Origin: Haloprofundus halobius
Lineage (GTDB): Archaea; Halobacteriota; Halobacteria; Halobacteriales; Haloferacaceae
NCBI RefSeq assembly: GCF_020097835.1
Contig: NZ_CP083666.1
Span: forward strand, 62,001 to 126,000
Direction of reading: 5' to 3'
DNA: 64,000 nucleotides
Part shown: positions 56,254 through 64,000 of the stretch, in pieces
How the letters are laid out: every line of letters starts with the position of its first letter
Numbering within the stretch: the stretch's first letter is position 1
Notes under the pieces: generated by a model
What the model was told of the DNA's origin: nothing
The model's input: the letters and a program-made list of their open reading frames with translations, nothing else
The model's database searches: none
Program-made: the position numbers and the translations under genes

Positions 56254-56410
56254 CCGCACTCCCGTGGACCCCGTTAGAACAGTCGACGGCGTCGACCACC
56301 GACTATCCGTGGCGAACGCGGACTCGTTCGAGACTCTCGGAATCGCCGCTCACCTCGACGAAAATTAGTGTCAGGTGGATATTTATACGTAATTGAACAC
56401 TCAATTCACC

Positions 56411-57646
56411 ATGGATCTCGACGAACTGCTCGAAGGATACACGGGCCGGACGCGAGAGGAGCTTACGGCGCACCACGACCGACCGGAGGATCTGGTCAAT
56501 CTTCTCGCGGAAGAGCTCGGAAACGACCTCCCCGAGGATTTTCTCACCGAAGTGACGAACGTCCGTCTCCATTCGGATACGATTCTGCTCTCGCTGGCCG
56601 ACCGACAACTGAAACACCTCCGATACACCGAGGAGATCGAACAGTCGGACGAGGCGTTCGTTCGGATGGACTTCACCGAACGTCCGGACGGTCACCCAGA
56701 CGAGTTCGAACACCGTGAGTTCAAGACGCCGACGGAGCACGCGTTCGACACCTGCACGGCCTGCGAGGGGTCACCCATCAGCGACTGTTCGTGCTGCGAT
56801 GCGACGGGTATCTCGGAGTGCGAGCGATGCGACGACGGGGCGGTGCCCTGTCGTTCCTGCGAGGGGACGGGGTCTCTCATGTGCCCGGTCTGTAAGGGCG
56901 ATGTGACCGTCGACTGCGAGACGTGCGACGGGGACGGACATCTGTCTCGGTCAGTACCGTGTTCGCCATGTAACTCCTCCGGGTCGGTCATGAGCCGCGA
57001 GAGCTGTACGAACTGTCAAGGGAAGGGGAGTCTAACCGACGCCGAAGGGGAGTCGGTTCGCTGTCCTAACTGCCGCGGCCGCAGCACCGTTTCGGTCACG
57101 CGGACGTGTACCTCGTGCAACGGTGCCGGCCAGCAGACGATTCAGAGCGGGTGCCCCGACTGTGCGATGGGCCGCGTCGACTGTCCGGAGTGTGACGACG
57201 GCGAGGTCTGGTGTCGGGTGTGCGAGGAGAGCGGTACCCGCGAGTGTCCGGACTGCGGCGGAACGACCGAAATTTCCTGTCAGAACTGCGACGGTGCCGG
57301 CACGCTCACCTGTGATATCTGCGAGGGCGACGGCGAGACGCACCAGTACGTCCTCGCTCACGACGCGTACACGGTGAAGAAAGGGGGTCACCAGTTCGGC
57401 TCGCTGCCCCACGGCATCGAAGCGGCCGACTGGGTGGAGTACGATGCCTGTCGTATCGAGCCCGAAGACAAGGTGGTTCTCCGGGAGGTCGTCCCGTCAG
57501 CCGCCGCGATTCGAGAGGTGAGATACGACTACGGCGAGCAGACGTTCAACCTCCGACAGATGGGCGGAGAGCTCTACTACACGCGGATTCCCGAACCGAC
57601 TCGAGAGGGGATTTTCAGTCGTCTCCGGAACCGGTTCACGGGGTGA
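56411..57646 (+). CDS. CXXC-repeat (DnaJ-type zinc-finger) protein
   Basis: About 411 residues from ATG 56411 (TTG 56393 is possible). After an alpha/beta N-terminal part of 110 residues, some 16 CxxC units in the style of the DnaJ CXXCXGXG cluster follow (CTACEG, CRSCEG, CPVCKG, CETCDG, CTNCQG, CPNCRG, CTSCNG, CPECDD, CQNCDG, CDICEG), binding perhaps eight zinc ions. A C-terminal domain of 100 residues has no J motif. Probably a chaperone or redox-type protein. Convergent with a J-domain gene, overlapping by 11 nt. Confidence 0.78.
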   Translation: MDLDELLEGYTGRTREELTAHHDRPEDLVNLLAEELGNDLPEDFLTEVTNVRLHSDTILLSLADRQLKHLRYTEEIEQSDEAFVRMDFTERPDGHPDEFEHREFKTPTEHAFDTCTACEGSPISDCSCCDATGISECERCDDGAVPCRSCEGTGSLMCPVCKGDVTVDCETCDGDGHLSRSVPCSPCNSSGSVMSRESCTNCQGKGSLTDAEGESVRCPNCRGRSTVSVTRTCTSCNGAGQQTIQSGCPDCAMGRVDCPECDDGEVWCRVCEESGTRECPDCGGTTEISCQNCDGAGTLTCDICEGDGETHQYVLAHDAYTVKKGGHQFGSLPHGIEAADWVEYDACRIEPEDKVVLREVVPSAAAIREVRYDYGEQTFNLRQMGGELYYTRIPEPTREGIFSRLRNRFTG

Positions 57647-58766
57647 AAAGCGCCCACGCGAGAACGAGGACGACGACCGCGACCGCCACGAGTCCGAGTC
57701 GACGCCGAAGGGAACCGTTCGTGGGCGGTTGCTCGACGCGGTACGTTGCCGAGCCGGTCTCGACGTCGGCTTCGACCGCGTCGGCGCCGTACCCTCGTTC
57801 GGTCGCGTACGCTTCCATCTCGATACCCGGGGGCCAGCCGCGAAGCGAGGCCCACCCCTCGGAGAACTCCTCGTGGCCGAGCGTGTCGTACCAAGCCCGC
57901 AGCCGCGGGTTGTCGAGGACCTCGAAGGCCTTCACGTATCCCTGGTACTGTTCTTCGCCCTCGATGGTCGCGCGGTCGGTCGACGAGTACGCGGCGTCGA
58001 TCTCCGCGAACCGGTCGCGAATCTCCGTCTGCGCCGCGTCCGGACCGACGCCGAGGCGGTCGTAGAACTCGCCGGCCGTGGCCGACGTCGGAGCCGTCGA
58101 TTGCGAAACCGACTCGGCTGCTGTGTCACCGCCGCCGGAGACTGACTGAGCGGTGTGGACCTCTGACCGGGCCAAATCGCCGTTCTCCGTGGCCTCCGAT
58201 GGATTCTGTGTTCCGGGACCGCTCTCGGCGAGAAAGTCATCGCGCCACCGCTCCCAGTACTCTCCCTCCTCGCTCGCCGACCCGTCGACATCCGACTCCT
58301 CGTCGCTTCCCGTCGGTCTGCTGTACCGGCTCCAGTCCGTTCGGTGCCCACCGCCTCCGGTTTCGTACTTCGGGCCGCGGTGGGCCGTCTCCGTCGCGTC
58401 GTCGAGATTCGTGTTCTGCGGTTCCGCGTCGTCTACGAACAGGTTACTCGGATCGTCGACGTTGTCGGGTCGGTGTTTCTCGATCCACGCGTCGACGTCG
58501 TAGATACCGCCCCCGAAGTCCCACCACTTCTCGAACGTCCGATGTCCGTAGGTGGGTCCGAGTTCGGCGAGCGTCTTGTCGTACTCTTCCCGGAAATCCC
58601 TGAGCACGCCCCGAGCGTGGACCAACTTTCGCGTCAACTGCCGTGCGTCCGCCTCGCTGCGAACGTCGGGATGCGTCTCGAGCAGTCGCTCGCGAAACCC
58701 TGCCTTGATGGCCGCGTACGAGCCGTCTCGGTCGACCCCCAGCTGCTCGTAATAGGTGTCCACCAT
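57636..58766 (-). CDS. Tail-anchored protein with two J-like domains
   Basis: About 376 residues from ATG 58766 (MVDTYYEQLGVDRDGSY). The first J domain keeps HPD at 32-34 (LLETHPDV). A second J-like segment at about 240-300 (EFYDRLGVGPDAAQTEIRDR, GYVKAFEVLDNPRLRAWYDT) lacks HPD and reads AAYSS there. A long acidic, low-complexity linker joins them. The last residues RRRLGLVAVAVVVLVLAWAL form a membrane anchor with the bulk cytoplasmic. It could recruit DnaK to the membrane; the zinc-finger protein opposite may be its partner. Confidence 0.8.
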   Translation of the reverse strand: MVDTYYEQLGVDRDGSYAAIKAGFRERLLETHPDVRSEADARQLTRKLVHARGVLRDFREEYDKTLAELGPTYGHRTFEKWWDFGGGIYDVDAWIEKHRPDNVDDPSNLFVDDAEPQNTNLDDATETAHRGPKYETGGGGHRTDWSRYSRPTGSDEESDVDGSASEEGEYWERWRDDFLAESGPGTQNPSEATENGDLARSEVHTAQSVSGGGDTAAESVSQSTAPTSATAGEFYDRLGVGPDAAQTEIRDRFAEIDAAYSSTDRATIEGEEQYQGYVKAFEVLDNPRLRAWYDTLGHEEFSEGWASLRGWPPGIEMEAYATERGYGADAVEADVETGSATYRVEQPPTNGSLRRRLGLVAVAVVVLVLAWALFTP

Positions 58767-58825
58767 GGCACCTACCAATAGGTTAGATTATAAGTATGTT
58801 CTGTAGCTGTCTTCGGCGATGCCAC

Positions 58826-61507: not shown

Positions 61508-61513
61508 TTATAG
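61508..61513 (+). promoter_or_regulatory. TATA box before the mini-ORF and CHAT gene
   Basis: TTATAG lies 28 nt before the mini-ORF ATG at 61536, the distance expected for a transcript starting at that codon. Confidence 0.5.
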
Positions 61514-61535
61514 TTTCAGCCAAATCAACAGAGTA

Positions 61536-61583
61536 ATGACTGCTCTCCCTGCCGTGGTCGCGCTTCGGAGGTGGACCCCGTGA
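61536..61583 (+). CDS. 15-codon leaderless mini-ORF coupled to the CHAT gene
   Basis: ATG 61536 encodes MTALPAVVALRRWTP and stops at TGA 61581-61583, overlapping the GTG at 61580 of the CHAT gene. A Shine-Dalgarno GGAGG (61567-61571) sits inside it at ideal spacing for GTG 61580. It could be a translated leader that couples or regulates the protease gene. Too short for coding statistics; support is the promoter and overlap geometry. Confidence 0.45.
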   Translation: MTALPAVVALRRWTP

Positions 61584-63658
61584 CCATCCGGTTTGGGTGT
61601 GCCACCGAGCGCTCGGGCGTCGAAGTCGTCGACGCCGTCGAGCGCCACCGGTACCTGCTGGAGACGCCCGAGGACGTCGAGCCGACTCCCGTCGACAGCG
61701 ACGAGTTCCGGTTCCCGGTCGACGCCGCCGTCTCGCTCCGTACGTCGGCGCTGACGCTGCCGACGGTCGTCCCCATCTACGTCCGCGACACCGACGGGAC
61801 GATGCTCGCGCACGTCACCCCGTCGGAGTCGATCTCGCTGCCGACCGGCGAGTACGCCGTCGAACTCTGTGCGCCCATCAAGATGTACCTGCGCGTCTCG
61901 GGCGAACTCACCGTCGACCGGACGCAGCAGCGTCTCGACTTCGGGACGGAGACGACGGTGTCGCTGGGCGCGCGCTCGCACCACGAGCATCCGGCCGGCA
62001 CCATCACCGTCACCGACTCCGTTGACGACGCGATGCGCGCCGTCTCGCTGTTCGGGTCGGCGCTGAAGACGACGACGCCGGAGCGCTCCTACCCGACGCT
62101 CCGGGGGCACCCGCCGACGGTCGAACTCGGTGACGCTTTCGAGGCACCCGACGACATCGTCGCCCCCGAGACGGGCGTTCGCATCGAACTGCCGCGCGAA
62201 CGCTCCTACGTCTACGCGGCCGCGCCGCTGGCGTACTACCTCAGCGCACGCGTCGAACCCGGTCCGGTGCCGCGATTGGTGACTGACGCGGGGTTCGAGT
62301 ACCGACTCGATACCGACAACGGCGTCGAACGCGAACTCGAACGGCTGTTGCGTCACGTGTTCTTCCTCGATTGCCTCTGTCGGACCGAGGGGCTCTATCC
62401 CGTCGACCTCCACGAACGTCGGGTCGTCGAGGAGGCGCTCTCCGGGGAGTTCGAGATGGCGTTCGACCGTCTGTACGAGTTGCCCTCCGACGAACGCCTC
62501 GCGGCGTACCTCTCGGTTCCGTACGAACTGTTGGAACCACACCACCCGGAGTGGAAACTCGTCAGCCACGTCGCACCGACGGCGCAGAGCGTGGAACTGC
62601 TGCCGTTTCTCGTCGACGACCTCGCGATCGTTCGCGCACCGACGCGAACCGAAGCTTCGACCGCATCGGAGATACAGGTCGACGCCGTCGACGAGTTCCT
62701 TCGCGACGGCGACGAGTTCACCCGCGGGGCAGCAGCGCAGTCCTCCGCGATGGAGTTCGTCCAACCGGAATCGGCCGACGCTGTCGAGCAGGCGTGGGTC
62801 GGCGAGGGGACGCCCGTCGGTGCGAACAAGGCCACCATCGAAGCGTACCGCAACCGCCTCAGTCGGACGATGGCCGGCGACGACATCGACATCGTCGTCG
62901 TCTGCAACGACTCCGAGATGGTCGACGAGCGCGACGATATCGACCACGTGTACGGTTCGCGCGACGAACTTCCGTTCGACGTGAGCATCCATCGGTCGCT
63001 CACCACCGACGAGTTGGCCGACGTGCTTCGCACGCAAACGGAGTTTCTCCACTACATCGGTCACATCGACGACGGCGGATTCGAGTGTGCCGACGGACGC
63101 CTCGACGCTCGCGAACTCGACGACGTTGGCGTCGACGCGTTCCTCCTGAACGGGTGTACCTCCTACGAGCAGGGGCTGTCGCTCATCGACGCGGGAGCCA
63201 TCGGCGGCATCGTCACGCTCTCGGACGTCATCAACAGCGGCGCGGTGCGTATCGGGTCGGTCCTAGCCAGACTCCTGAACGGCGGGTTCCCACTTTCAGT
63301 AGCGCTCGAGATCGCCCGCGGTGAGAGCATCGTCGGCAGTCAGTACGTCGTCGTCGGCGACGGAGGCCTTGCGATTACGCAACCTGAGAGCGGAGCACCG
63401 TCCCTCTGTGAGGTCGAACGGTGTGATGGGGTCTATGAAGTTTCGCTTCGCGTATATCCAACCGAGAAGTATGGGATAGGGAGTATGACAATCCCCTATA
63501 TTTCGGACAACAAACAGTACTCACTAACTTCGGGTGTTTATCAACAACGAAACATCTCGAAGGGAGAGTTACTTGAGTTCCTCTCTCTCGAAGATTTCCC
63601 CGTCCGCTTTAACGGTGAACTCCGCTGGAGTGAGTCTATTCAGGACTACGAACTTTAG
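61580..63658 (+). CDS. CHAT-domain (caspase-like) protease
   Basis: About 692 residues. N-terminal 200 residues are beta-rich, a helical middle follows, and the C-terminal third is a CHAT peptidase: GDDIDIVVVCND, LHYIGHIDDGG with the catalytic His near residue 495, and FLLNGCTSYEQG with the catalytic Cys near 526, then GIVTLSDVINSGAVR. CHAT proteases are activated by partner sensors in several defence systems. I start at GTG 61580 because GGAGG lies 8 nt upstream; GTG 61571 would overlap it. The last 110 codons are notably AT-richer. Confidence 0.8.
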   Translation: MTIRFGCATERSGVEVVDAVERHRYLLETPEDVEPTPVDSDEFRFPVDAAVSLRTSALTLPTVVPIYVRDTDGTMLAHVTPSESISLPTGEYAVELCAPIKMYLRVSGELTVDRTQQRLDFGTETTVSLGARSHHEHPAGTITVTDSVDDAMRAVSLFGSALKTTTPERSYPTLRGHPPTVELGDAFEAPDDIVAPETGVRIELPRERSYVYAAAPLAYYLSARVEPGPVPRLVTDAGFEYRLDTDNGVERELERLLRHVFFLDCLCRTEGLYPVDLHERRVVEEALSGEFEMAFDRLYELPSDERLAAYLSVPYELLEPHHPEWKLVSHVAPTAQSVELLPFLVDDLAIVRAPTRTEASTASEIQVDAVDEFLRDGDEFTRGAAAQSSAMEFVQPESADAVEQAWVGEGTPVGANKATIEAYRNRLSRTMAGDDIDIVVVCNDSEMVDERDDIDHVYGSRDELPFDVSIHRSLTTDELADVLRTQTEFLHYIGHIDDGGFECADGRLDARELDDVGVDAFLLNGCTSYEQGLSLIDAGAIGGIVTLSDVINSGAVRIGSVLARLLNGGFPLSVALEIARGESIVGSQYVVVGDGGLAITQPESGAPSLCEVERCDGVYEVSLRVYPTEKYGIGSMTIPYISDNKQYSLTSGVYQQRNISKGELLEFLSLEDFPVRFNGELRWSESIQDYEL

Positions 63659-63795
63659 GGTCCGGAAACGTTCCCAGTCGCCGCCGCAACCGCGTTTCCT
63701 GCCTGCGAGAGCAGCAGCATCATCGTGAAGACGACGCCGATCATCCGGGGGTTGTTTTTGAGGTAGTTCGCCATTCCAGAGTCGTTCTGGCTCAT
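63655..63795 (-). CDS. 46-residue hydrophobic exported peptide (DUF7503-like)
   Basis: Too short for a usual ORF call. ATG 63795 reads MSQNDSGMANYLKNNPRMIG, then VVFTMMLLLSQAGNAVAAATG, ending NVSGP with stop at 63655. A short charged head, YLKNNPRM, one hydrophobic signal-like segment with an AxAAA end, and a tiny tail match the haloarchaeal DUF7503 type (name from memory). A TATA-like TTTAAATATA lies about 40 nt upstream on its strand. Stops of this gene and the CHAT gene overlap by 3 bases. Confidence 0.7.
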   Translation of the reverse strand: MSQNDSGMANYLKNNPRMIGVVFTMMLLLSQAGNAVAAATGNVSGP

Positions 63796-64000
63796 ACTAC
63801 AGAGGATACCCCCCGCGGCAATGAATATATTTAAACACTTCCCACAGATAATTCAATAATATAATATCAGGATCTAGACGGAATAACGCATTCAAAAGCT
63901 GTCACGACAGCCGCGTAGTTACCATTTCTCACGGGGGCACCTCATTCTACCGCCTTCCGTCACCGGCTGCGTCCCGAAATCGTCGCGTCCTCGCTCCGCC
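63796..64000. other. AT-rich gap at the window end
   Basis: It holds the minus-strand promoter of the small peptide gene (TATA-like at about 63826-63836) and AT-rich DNA to about 63900; no gene is seen before the window ends. Confidence 0.4.

Follow-up and report, generated by a model that had tools for sequence, protein, structure and literature searches.

A CHAT-fold protease gene and a DUF7503 micropeptide gene kept tail-to-tail across Halobacteria

Does a 46-residue peptide gene whose stop codon overlaps that of a CHAT-type cysteine protease gene encode the protease's partner, and if so, what might the two do together? The question arises near the end of the stretch of the Haloprofundus halobius genome analysed here (the window; 64,000 nucleotides, RefSeq assembly GCF_020097835.1, contig NZ_CP083666.1, positions 62,001 to 126,000 of the forward strand). 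A preliminary description, made from the sequence alone, had reported a leader mini-ORF, a CHAT protease gene and a convergent small gene with overlapping stops, and had proposed that the peptide or another local product might serve the protease as sensor, substrate or effector, perhaps in defence or cell death. Every part of that layout is present in the window:

61508..61513, + strand: TATA-like element TTATAG, 23-28 nt 5' of the mini-ORF ATG (sequence)
ATG 61536, TGA 61581-61583, + strand: leader mini-ORF of 15 codons, MTALPAVVALRRWTP (sequence and related loci)
61567..61574, + strand: Shine-Dalgarno element GGAGGTGG within the mini-ORF, 5 nt 5' of GTG 61580 (sequence)
61580..63658, + strand: CHAT-fold cysteine protease gene, 692 residues plus stop (AF2 model, Foldseek, PF12770 in relatives)
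63062..63064, + strand: codon of the predicted catalytic His495 (HYIGH), invariant in 149/149 relatives
63155..63157, + strand: codon of the predicted catalytic Cys526 (LLNGC), invariant in 149/149 relatives
63655..63658: TTAG, the overlapping stops of both convergent genes (TAG on +, TAA on -; sequence)
63655..63795, - strand: DUF7503 peptide gene, 46 aa, MSQNDSGMANYLKNNPRMIGVVFTMMLLLSQAGNAVAAATGNVSGP (PF24335 at 72.5 bits, CHAT pairing)
63745..63753, - strand: codons of the [HN]P[RK] motif (N15 P16 R17), predicted cytosol-membrane boundary (conserved P and R/K)
63658..63684, - strand: codons of the variable tail AATGNVSGP, 3' of the [AV]xA site, with Gly-Pro C-terminus (tail survey)
63826..63835, - strand: TATA-like element (TTTAAATATA), the peptide gene's own apparent promoter (A+T block in 84 promoters)

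The CHAT ORF opens at GTG 61580 (an in-frame GTG at 61571 is a possible alternative start) and closes with TAG at 63656-63658; its start overlaps the mini-ORF stop TGA as GTGA, and its stop overlaps that of the convergent DUF7503 gene by 4 nt. A second convergent pair lies elsewhere in the window: 56393-57646 (+) encodes a protein with many DnaJ-type CxxCxGxG-like zinc motifs, and 57636-58778 (-) one that has two J-domain-like segments and, towards its C-terminus, a hydrophobic stretch, the two together resembling a split DnaJ.

The window CHAT protein has no match of its own in Pfam, NCBIfam or PADLOC, and one scan of GTDB genomes returned 39 relatives, all in Halobacteria. The Pfam CHAT profile (PF12770) weakly matches 7 of 33 close relatives (best E 3.7e-4), and three haloarchaeal relatives score above its cut-off, below which the window protein, taken alone, would fall. 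A sequence search of the PDB with the CHAT profile returned nothing, even at E 10; the fold search alone was informative. With an AlphaFold model built from a 33-row alignment (pLDDT 84, pTM 0.84), Foldseek retrieved separase (3.8e-7), gingipain R, SAVED-CHAT, the anti-sigma factor DdvA and Csx29, at a Foldseek probability of 1.00 for separase, gingipain, SAVED-CHAT and Csx29; model and matches place the protein in the caspase-hemoglobinase fold (clan CD). His495 follows strand 487-493 and Cys526 strand 518-524, the third and fourth core strands of the model, and both residues are unchanged in all 149 labelled relatives of the alignment. Where the first core strand ends, the alignment shows an invariant N443 followed by a nearly invariant D444; E450 is present in 106 of 106 paired CHATs and varies among unpaired ones. 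Modelled fold and alignment thus indicate that the window protein is a member of a divergent CHAT family with an intact His/Cys dyad. The original identification as a CHAT-type protease is supported, and the His and Cys then proposed as catalytic do occupy the expected positions in the model, at the ends of two core strands, and never vary. Our literature search found no link between CHAT domains and haloarchaea.

Upstream of the protease gene, the mini-ORF transcript is probably leaderless, as its ATG lies 23-28 nt past TTATAG. Thirteen related loci, with all five species of the genus represented among them, have a mini-ORF of the same build, which the wider family lacks; these leaders comprise 14-18 codons, with a GTGA or ATGA overlap, an internal Shine-Dalgarno element (GGAGG or similar) and an A+T-rich block upstream, and their sequence differs between genera while the architecture is kept. 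In Haloferax volcanii, termination-reinitiation at overlapping stop and start codons is experimentally established (PMC6728339). The likeliest role for the mini-ORF is in translational coupling: it would set CHAT translation by termination-reinitiation. An effector role for it was rejected, because its sequence varies, its RRW residues follow from the Shine-Dalgarno element and only the architecture is kept. A different gene, encoding DUF7504 (PF24336), lies in line ahead of CHAT in about half of the 39 primary loci (L002-L039). DUF7504 models as a KaiC-like RecA fold, apparently without a P-loop, and is sometimes fused to HalOD1; where it precedes CHAT, no coupled mini-ORF was seen. The placement of CHAT in line with this KaiC-like protein in many relatives suggests a regulatory input.

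Is the peptide tied to the protease beyond this one locus? The window peptide matches Pfam DUF7503 well above the gathering cut-off (27 bits). A context-blind search of 116 Halobacteria genomes with the DUF7503 profile of Pfam identified 125 genes in 95 of them, and a CHAT profile search found relatives in 103 of the 116, each family thus occurring in most of the Halobacteria genomes sampled. Among the matches listed, 120 of the 125 DUF7503 genes are convergent with a CHAT gene within 1.5 kb (median gap 28 nt). Four others, in genomes G027, G032, G038 and G102, were rejected as adjacency exceptions after contig inspection revealed the same convergent CHAT layout at each, bringing the tail-to-tail total to 124 of 125; in the sole exception (G049) the DUF7503 gene is co-directional, 1.4 kb downstream. 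A survey of this kind, suggested in the preliminary description, therefore finds the peptide family almost exclusively beside CHAT genes rather than mostly elsewhere, and supports the peptide as CHAT partner. From the protease side, only one (in G080) of the best 119 CHAT matches listed lacks a peptide inside 1.5 kb, and DUF7503 is found in none of the 13 CHAT-less genomes. No DUF7503 peptide was found beyond Halobacteria in the phylum sample searched. The 3' ends of the two genes overlap by 4 nt, abut or lie a few nt apart in most relatives, gaps of 30-150 nt occur in many genera, and the pair is retained where it exists as several paralogues or on plasmids.

A tree of 151 CHATs places the pairing in one large clade, where 105 of 120 labelled rows show it and losses are few. 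Among clade-B CHATs, 28 of 29 rows lack a DUF7503-profile match, four congeners among these having a divergent peptide, described below; no substitute small convergent membrane ORF conserved across genera was found beside the unpaired CHAT clade. Some tandem CHAT copies have no recognisable peptide, and the existence of wider-family CHATs without one implies that the protease can work without it. Individual loci depart from the usual layout in several ways: at L114 and L115 (G023, G067) two or three CHAT genes stand in tandem, with no peptide recognised beside them; at G012:C1:486534-486796 one CHAT gene is adjoined by two tandem DUF7503 genes; at G074:C1:2744981-2747074 a CHAT gene with one in-frame TGA, likely a recent pseudogene, lies beside a DUF7503 gene; and on a Haladaptatus plasmid (L025, about 9,860) the peptide gene is ~2.8 kb downstream of CHAT, apparently separated from it. 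The L004 peptide was considered as a truncated form and rejected as such, its shortness being a contig-end effect.

The window's own genome encodes four CHAT paralogues and, by Pfam, three DUF7503 peptides. Beside the fourth CHAT (G000:C1 about 798,700-800,900; L151, L153), 94 nt past its stop, lies a convergent 72-residue ORF ending FVARHPRVLVICIALAVGIATQGTVGAETMIEPYNGHSTATGP (C-terminal TATGP), and each of the four congeners has a counterpart next to its orthologue of this CHAT (phmmer E 2e-16 to 2e-21). The 72-residue ORF has no Pfam DUF7503 match and shares with DUF7503 an HPR motif, a hydrophobic core, QG and the GP end. All four CHATs of this genome thus have a convergent peptide and, as the fourth falls outside the Pfam family, this kind of peptide looks older and broader than Pfam DUF7503. 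In sum, Halobacteria conserve the tail-to-tail arrangement of an intact CHAT-fold protease gene and a micropeptide gene, both of which seem to have promoters of their own, and we regard it as very likely that the two are functional partners. Our literature search found no description of this CHAT-peptide module and no mention of DUF7503 or DUF7504.

What the peptide might be is suggested by its build. The consensus of the unique peptides runs from a short polar start through YLxx[HN]P[RK]M, GVLFTxxLLL and SQAGxx[AV]xA to a tail. In the [HN]P[RK] motif both the proline and the R/K are present in 68 of 68 unique peptides, and residues inside the h-region are conserved as well (F 68/68, Q 65/68). 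An uncharged h-region of 12-13 residues is found in 74 of 81 peptides, and the [AV]xA site has Ala/Val at -3 in 77/81 and Ala at -1 in 76/81. The tail has 9 residues in 56 of 81 and 8 in 14 of 81, ends in Gly-Pro in 74 of 81, and is nearly free of charge (D+E 4/729, vs 16% in CHAT). Across 194 close pairs, pN/pS rises from 0.22 before the site to 0.70 in the tail; the final Gly-Pro shows 0 nonsynonymous changes in these pairs, a set limited to GP-ending peptides. The layout agrees with that of a Sec/SPase I signal (basic n-region, h-region of 10-15 residues, small -3/-1 residues), and by hydropathy the peptide falls on the border between cleaved signals and single transmembrane helices. The peptide therefore appears to be built like an exported short peptide, a single membrane helix being also compatible, and is probably exported or surface-exposed. 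Its promoters (n=84) have an A+T fraction of mostly 0.9 or more at -38..-29, and in several genera an upstream repeat like TATCAGAAAxTGTCAGAAAA lies by the TATA block, between -60 and -29; this repeat is a possible site for a common regulator.

Our preferred reading, which we hold tentatively, is that of a dedicated two-gene protease-peptide module, most likely for signalling, with the peptide precursor as the target of CHAT. The precursor would enter the membrane N-in/C-out, its tail being exposed or released outside the cell, and cytosolic CHAT would be its cognate partner. CHAT would most likely cut the N-terminal segment of the precursor after the invariant Arg/Lys of [HN]P[RK], and this cut would control the amount of peptide exported. 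Separase and the gingipains have Arg/Lys (basic P1) specificity, and the site is favoured because the nearest structures include such Arg/Lys cutters and because paired CHATs keep acidic residues, D444 (mostly) and E450, close to where the first core strand ends. That CHAT cuts this DUF7503 peptide is, by analogy with these proteases, a reasonable possibility that we put below the module itself. Against cleavage, the membrane-adjacent R/K could be kept for topology alone, by the positive-inside rule; against a plain signal peptide, the h-region seems conserved beyond such a need; and against a module, the separate convergent promoters do not enforce co-expression.

The closest parallel is Csx29-Csx30, a CHAT protease and a dedicated substrate linked to it within the same system (PMC10028731). 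Csx29 (TPR-CHAT) and Csx30 are parts of type III-E CRISPR (Craspase) and the likeness is one of related protease fold, whereas the haloarchaeal module has no TPR, CRISPR or RNA guide and its genes are convergent; Csx30 is larger and a sigma-factor inhibitor, whereas the haloarchaeal partner is a ~45-residue peptide of apparently export-like build. With SAVED-CHAT (a CRISPR-associated filament, PDB 8tl0) the window protein has the CHAT domain in common (Foldseek down to 2.4e-6), but it lacks the SAVED domain, and no cyclic-oligonucleotide sensing partner was seen. Separase and gingipains R and K, the best structural matches, have in common a caspase-like His-Cys dyad, but sequence identity is 10-15% and the regulatory domains differ, and basic specificity could be assigned to CHAT only by analogy. 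Cyanobacterial heterocyst development offers another comparison, as the pathway of HetF uses the short peptides PatS and PatX, which end in RGSGR-type motifs. HetF is itself a CHAT protease of cyanobacterial development (PMC8406250), but it is bacterial, carries TM and TPR domains unlike the haloarchaeal CHAT, and no sequence relation between the two was seen.

The tail is best explained if the peptide is a pheromone: a signal peptidase or intramembrane protease would free a ~9-residue Gly-Pro peptide, kin would sense it, and CHAT, intracellular or membrane-proximal, would be receptor or effector, each CHAT-peptide pair forming a private channel. In Gram-positive Rgg-SHP and arbitrium systems a very short precursor is likewise encoded beside its partner gene, with a hydrophobic export-like N-terminus and a variable C-terminal signal; the precursor layout resembles that of DUF7503, but the partner there is a transcription factor and here a protease, and secretion and signalling are here presumed. 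A textbook Sec precursor layout, a near-fixed charge-free tail with hypervariable core and conserved GP end, and several paralogous pairs per genome with different tails all fit such a pheromone, but the conserved h-region is left without explanation, and CHAT shows no sign of an importer or receptor domain. Quorum sensing does occur in H. volcanii, through a disk-forming signal of 3 kDa or less, but this signal, the one haloarchaeal example known, withstands proteinase K and was taken to be a small molecule rather than a large peptide (PMC12240190). Because of that resistance we did not equate the DUF7503 peptide with it, and we consider the pheromone possible but doubtful.

A membrane effector or cell-death pair, in which a small membrane-active toxin is restrained or unleashed by CHAT cleavage in gasdermin-like fashion, would suit a small hydrophobic peptide with its own promoter and the cell-death and defence systems in which CHAT proteases act elsewhere (Foldseek neighbours; PMC10028731). 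H. volcanii also has a caspase-like activity, and PMC3615174 describes the proteins behind such activity in haloarchaea as unidentified, but the activity reported there is Asp-directed (LEVD). Furthermore, PADLOC assigned no family (0) to CHAT protein or peptide, IMG/VR viral contigs contain no relative, and the layout of a type II toxin-antitoxin system (a co-directional operon of two small genes) is absent, the genes being convergent with separate promoter-like elements. At the loci examined for context the module sits on the chromosome, with gene order conserved and a stable setting of housekeeping and signalling genes (IMPDH, Lrp/AsnC, aminotransferase, Usp and HalX response regulator); two CHAT loci are on plasmids. 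A GP C-terminus and near-fixed tail length are likewise not expected of a lytic peptide. The defence or cell-death role raised at the outset is thus not borne out, defence being rejected on the PADLOC and IMG/VR results; a membrane effector is improbable, and signalling seems somewhat more probable than killing.

More improbable again is a tether or adaptor, an uncleaved single-pass anchor that is not proteolysed and whose cytosolic N-terminus recruits or inhibits CHAT: the conserved n- and h-region residues, a hydropathy fitting one membrane helix and a CHAT without a clear membrane segment would agree with it, but the [AV]xA site, the uncharged 9-residue tail and the conserved GP end would have no explanation. 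That the genes are merely old, vertically inherited neighbours without functional link, locked together by overlapping 3' ends, is very improbable: stops that overlap or abut in many loci would hinder separation, but overlap cannot enforce linkage across the gaps of 30-150 nt, paralogous and plasmid-borne copies retain the pair, CHAT-less genomes do not retain the peptide, and linkage persists at the deeply diverged fourth paralogue.

The signalling module that we prefer would bring together in one testable unit a Pfam family that is still uncharacterised and a family of caspase-fold proteases that has no name, within reach of the genetically tractable Haloferax, and would mean that CHAT proteases have linked, dedicated partners in archaeal physiology as well as in bacterial CRISPR systems. 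Haloarchaeal CHATs become candidates for the caspase-like activity of these organisms, a role that basic specificity would not fit, and the pairs provide gene candidates for the question of whether archaea signal by ribosomally made peptides. It is a still more doubtful proposal that DUF7503 peptides are lineage-wide, exported, Gly-Pro-terminated signals, each with its own CHAT making or reading the signal and with several private channels per genome; if true, such Gly-Pro peptide signals would constitute a ribosomally made peptide-communication system in archaea.
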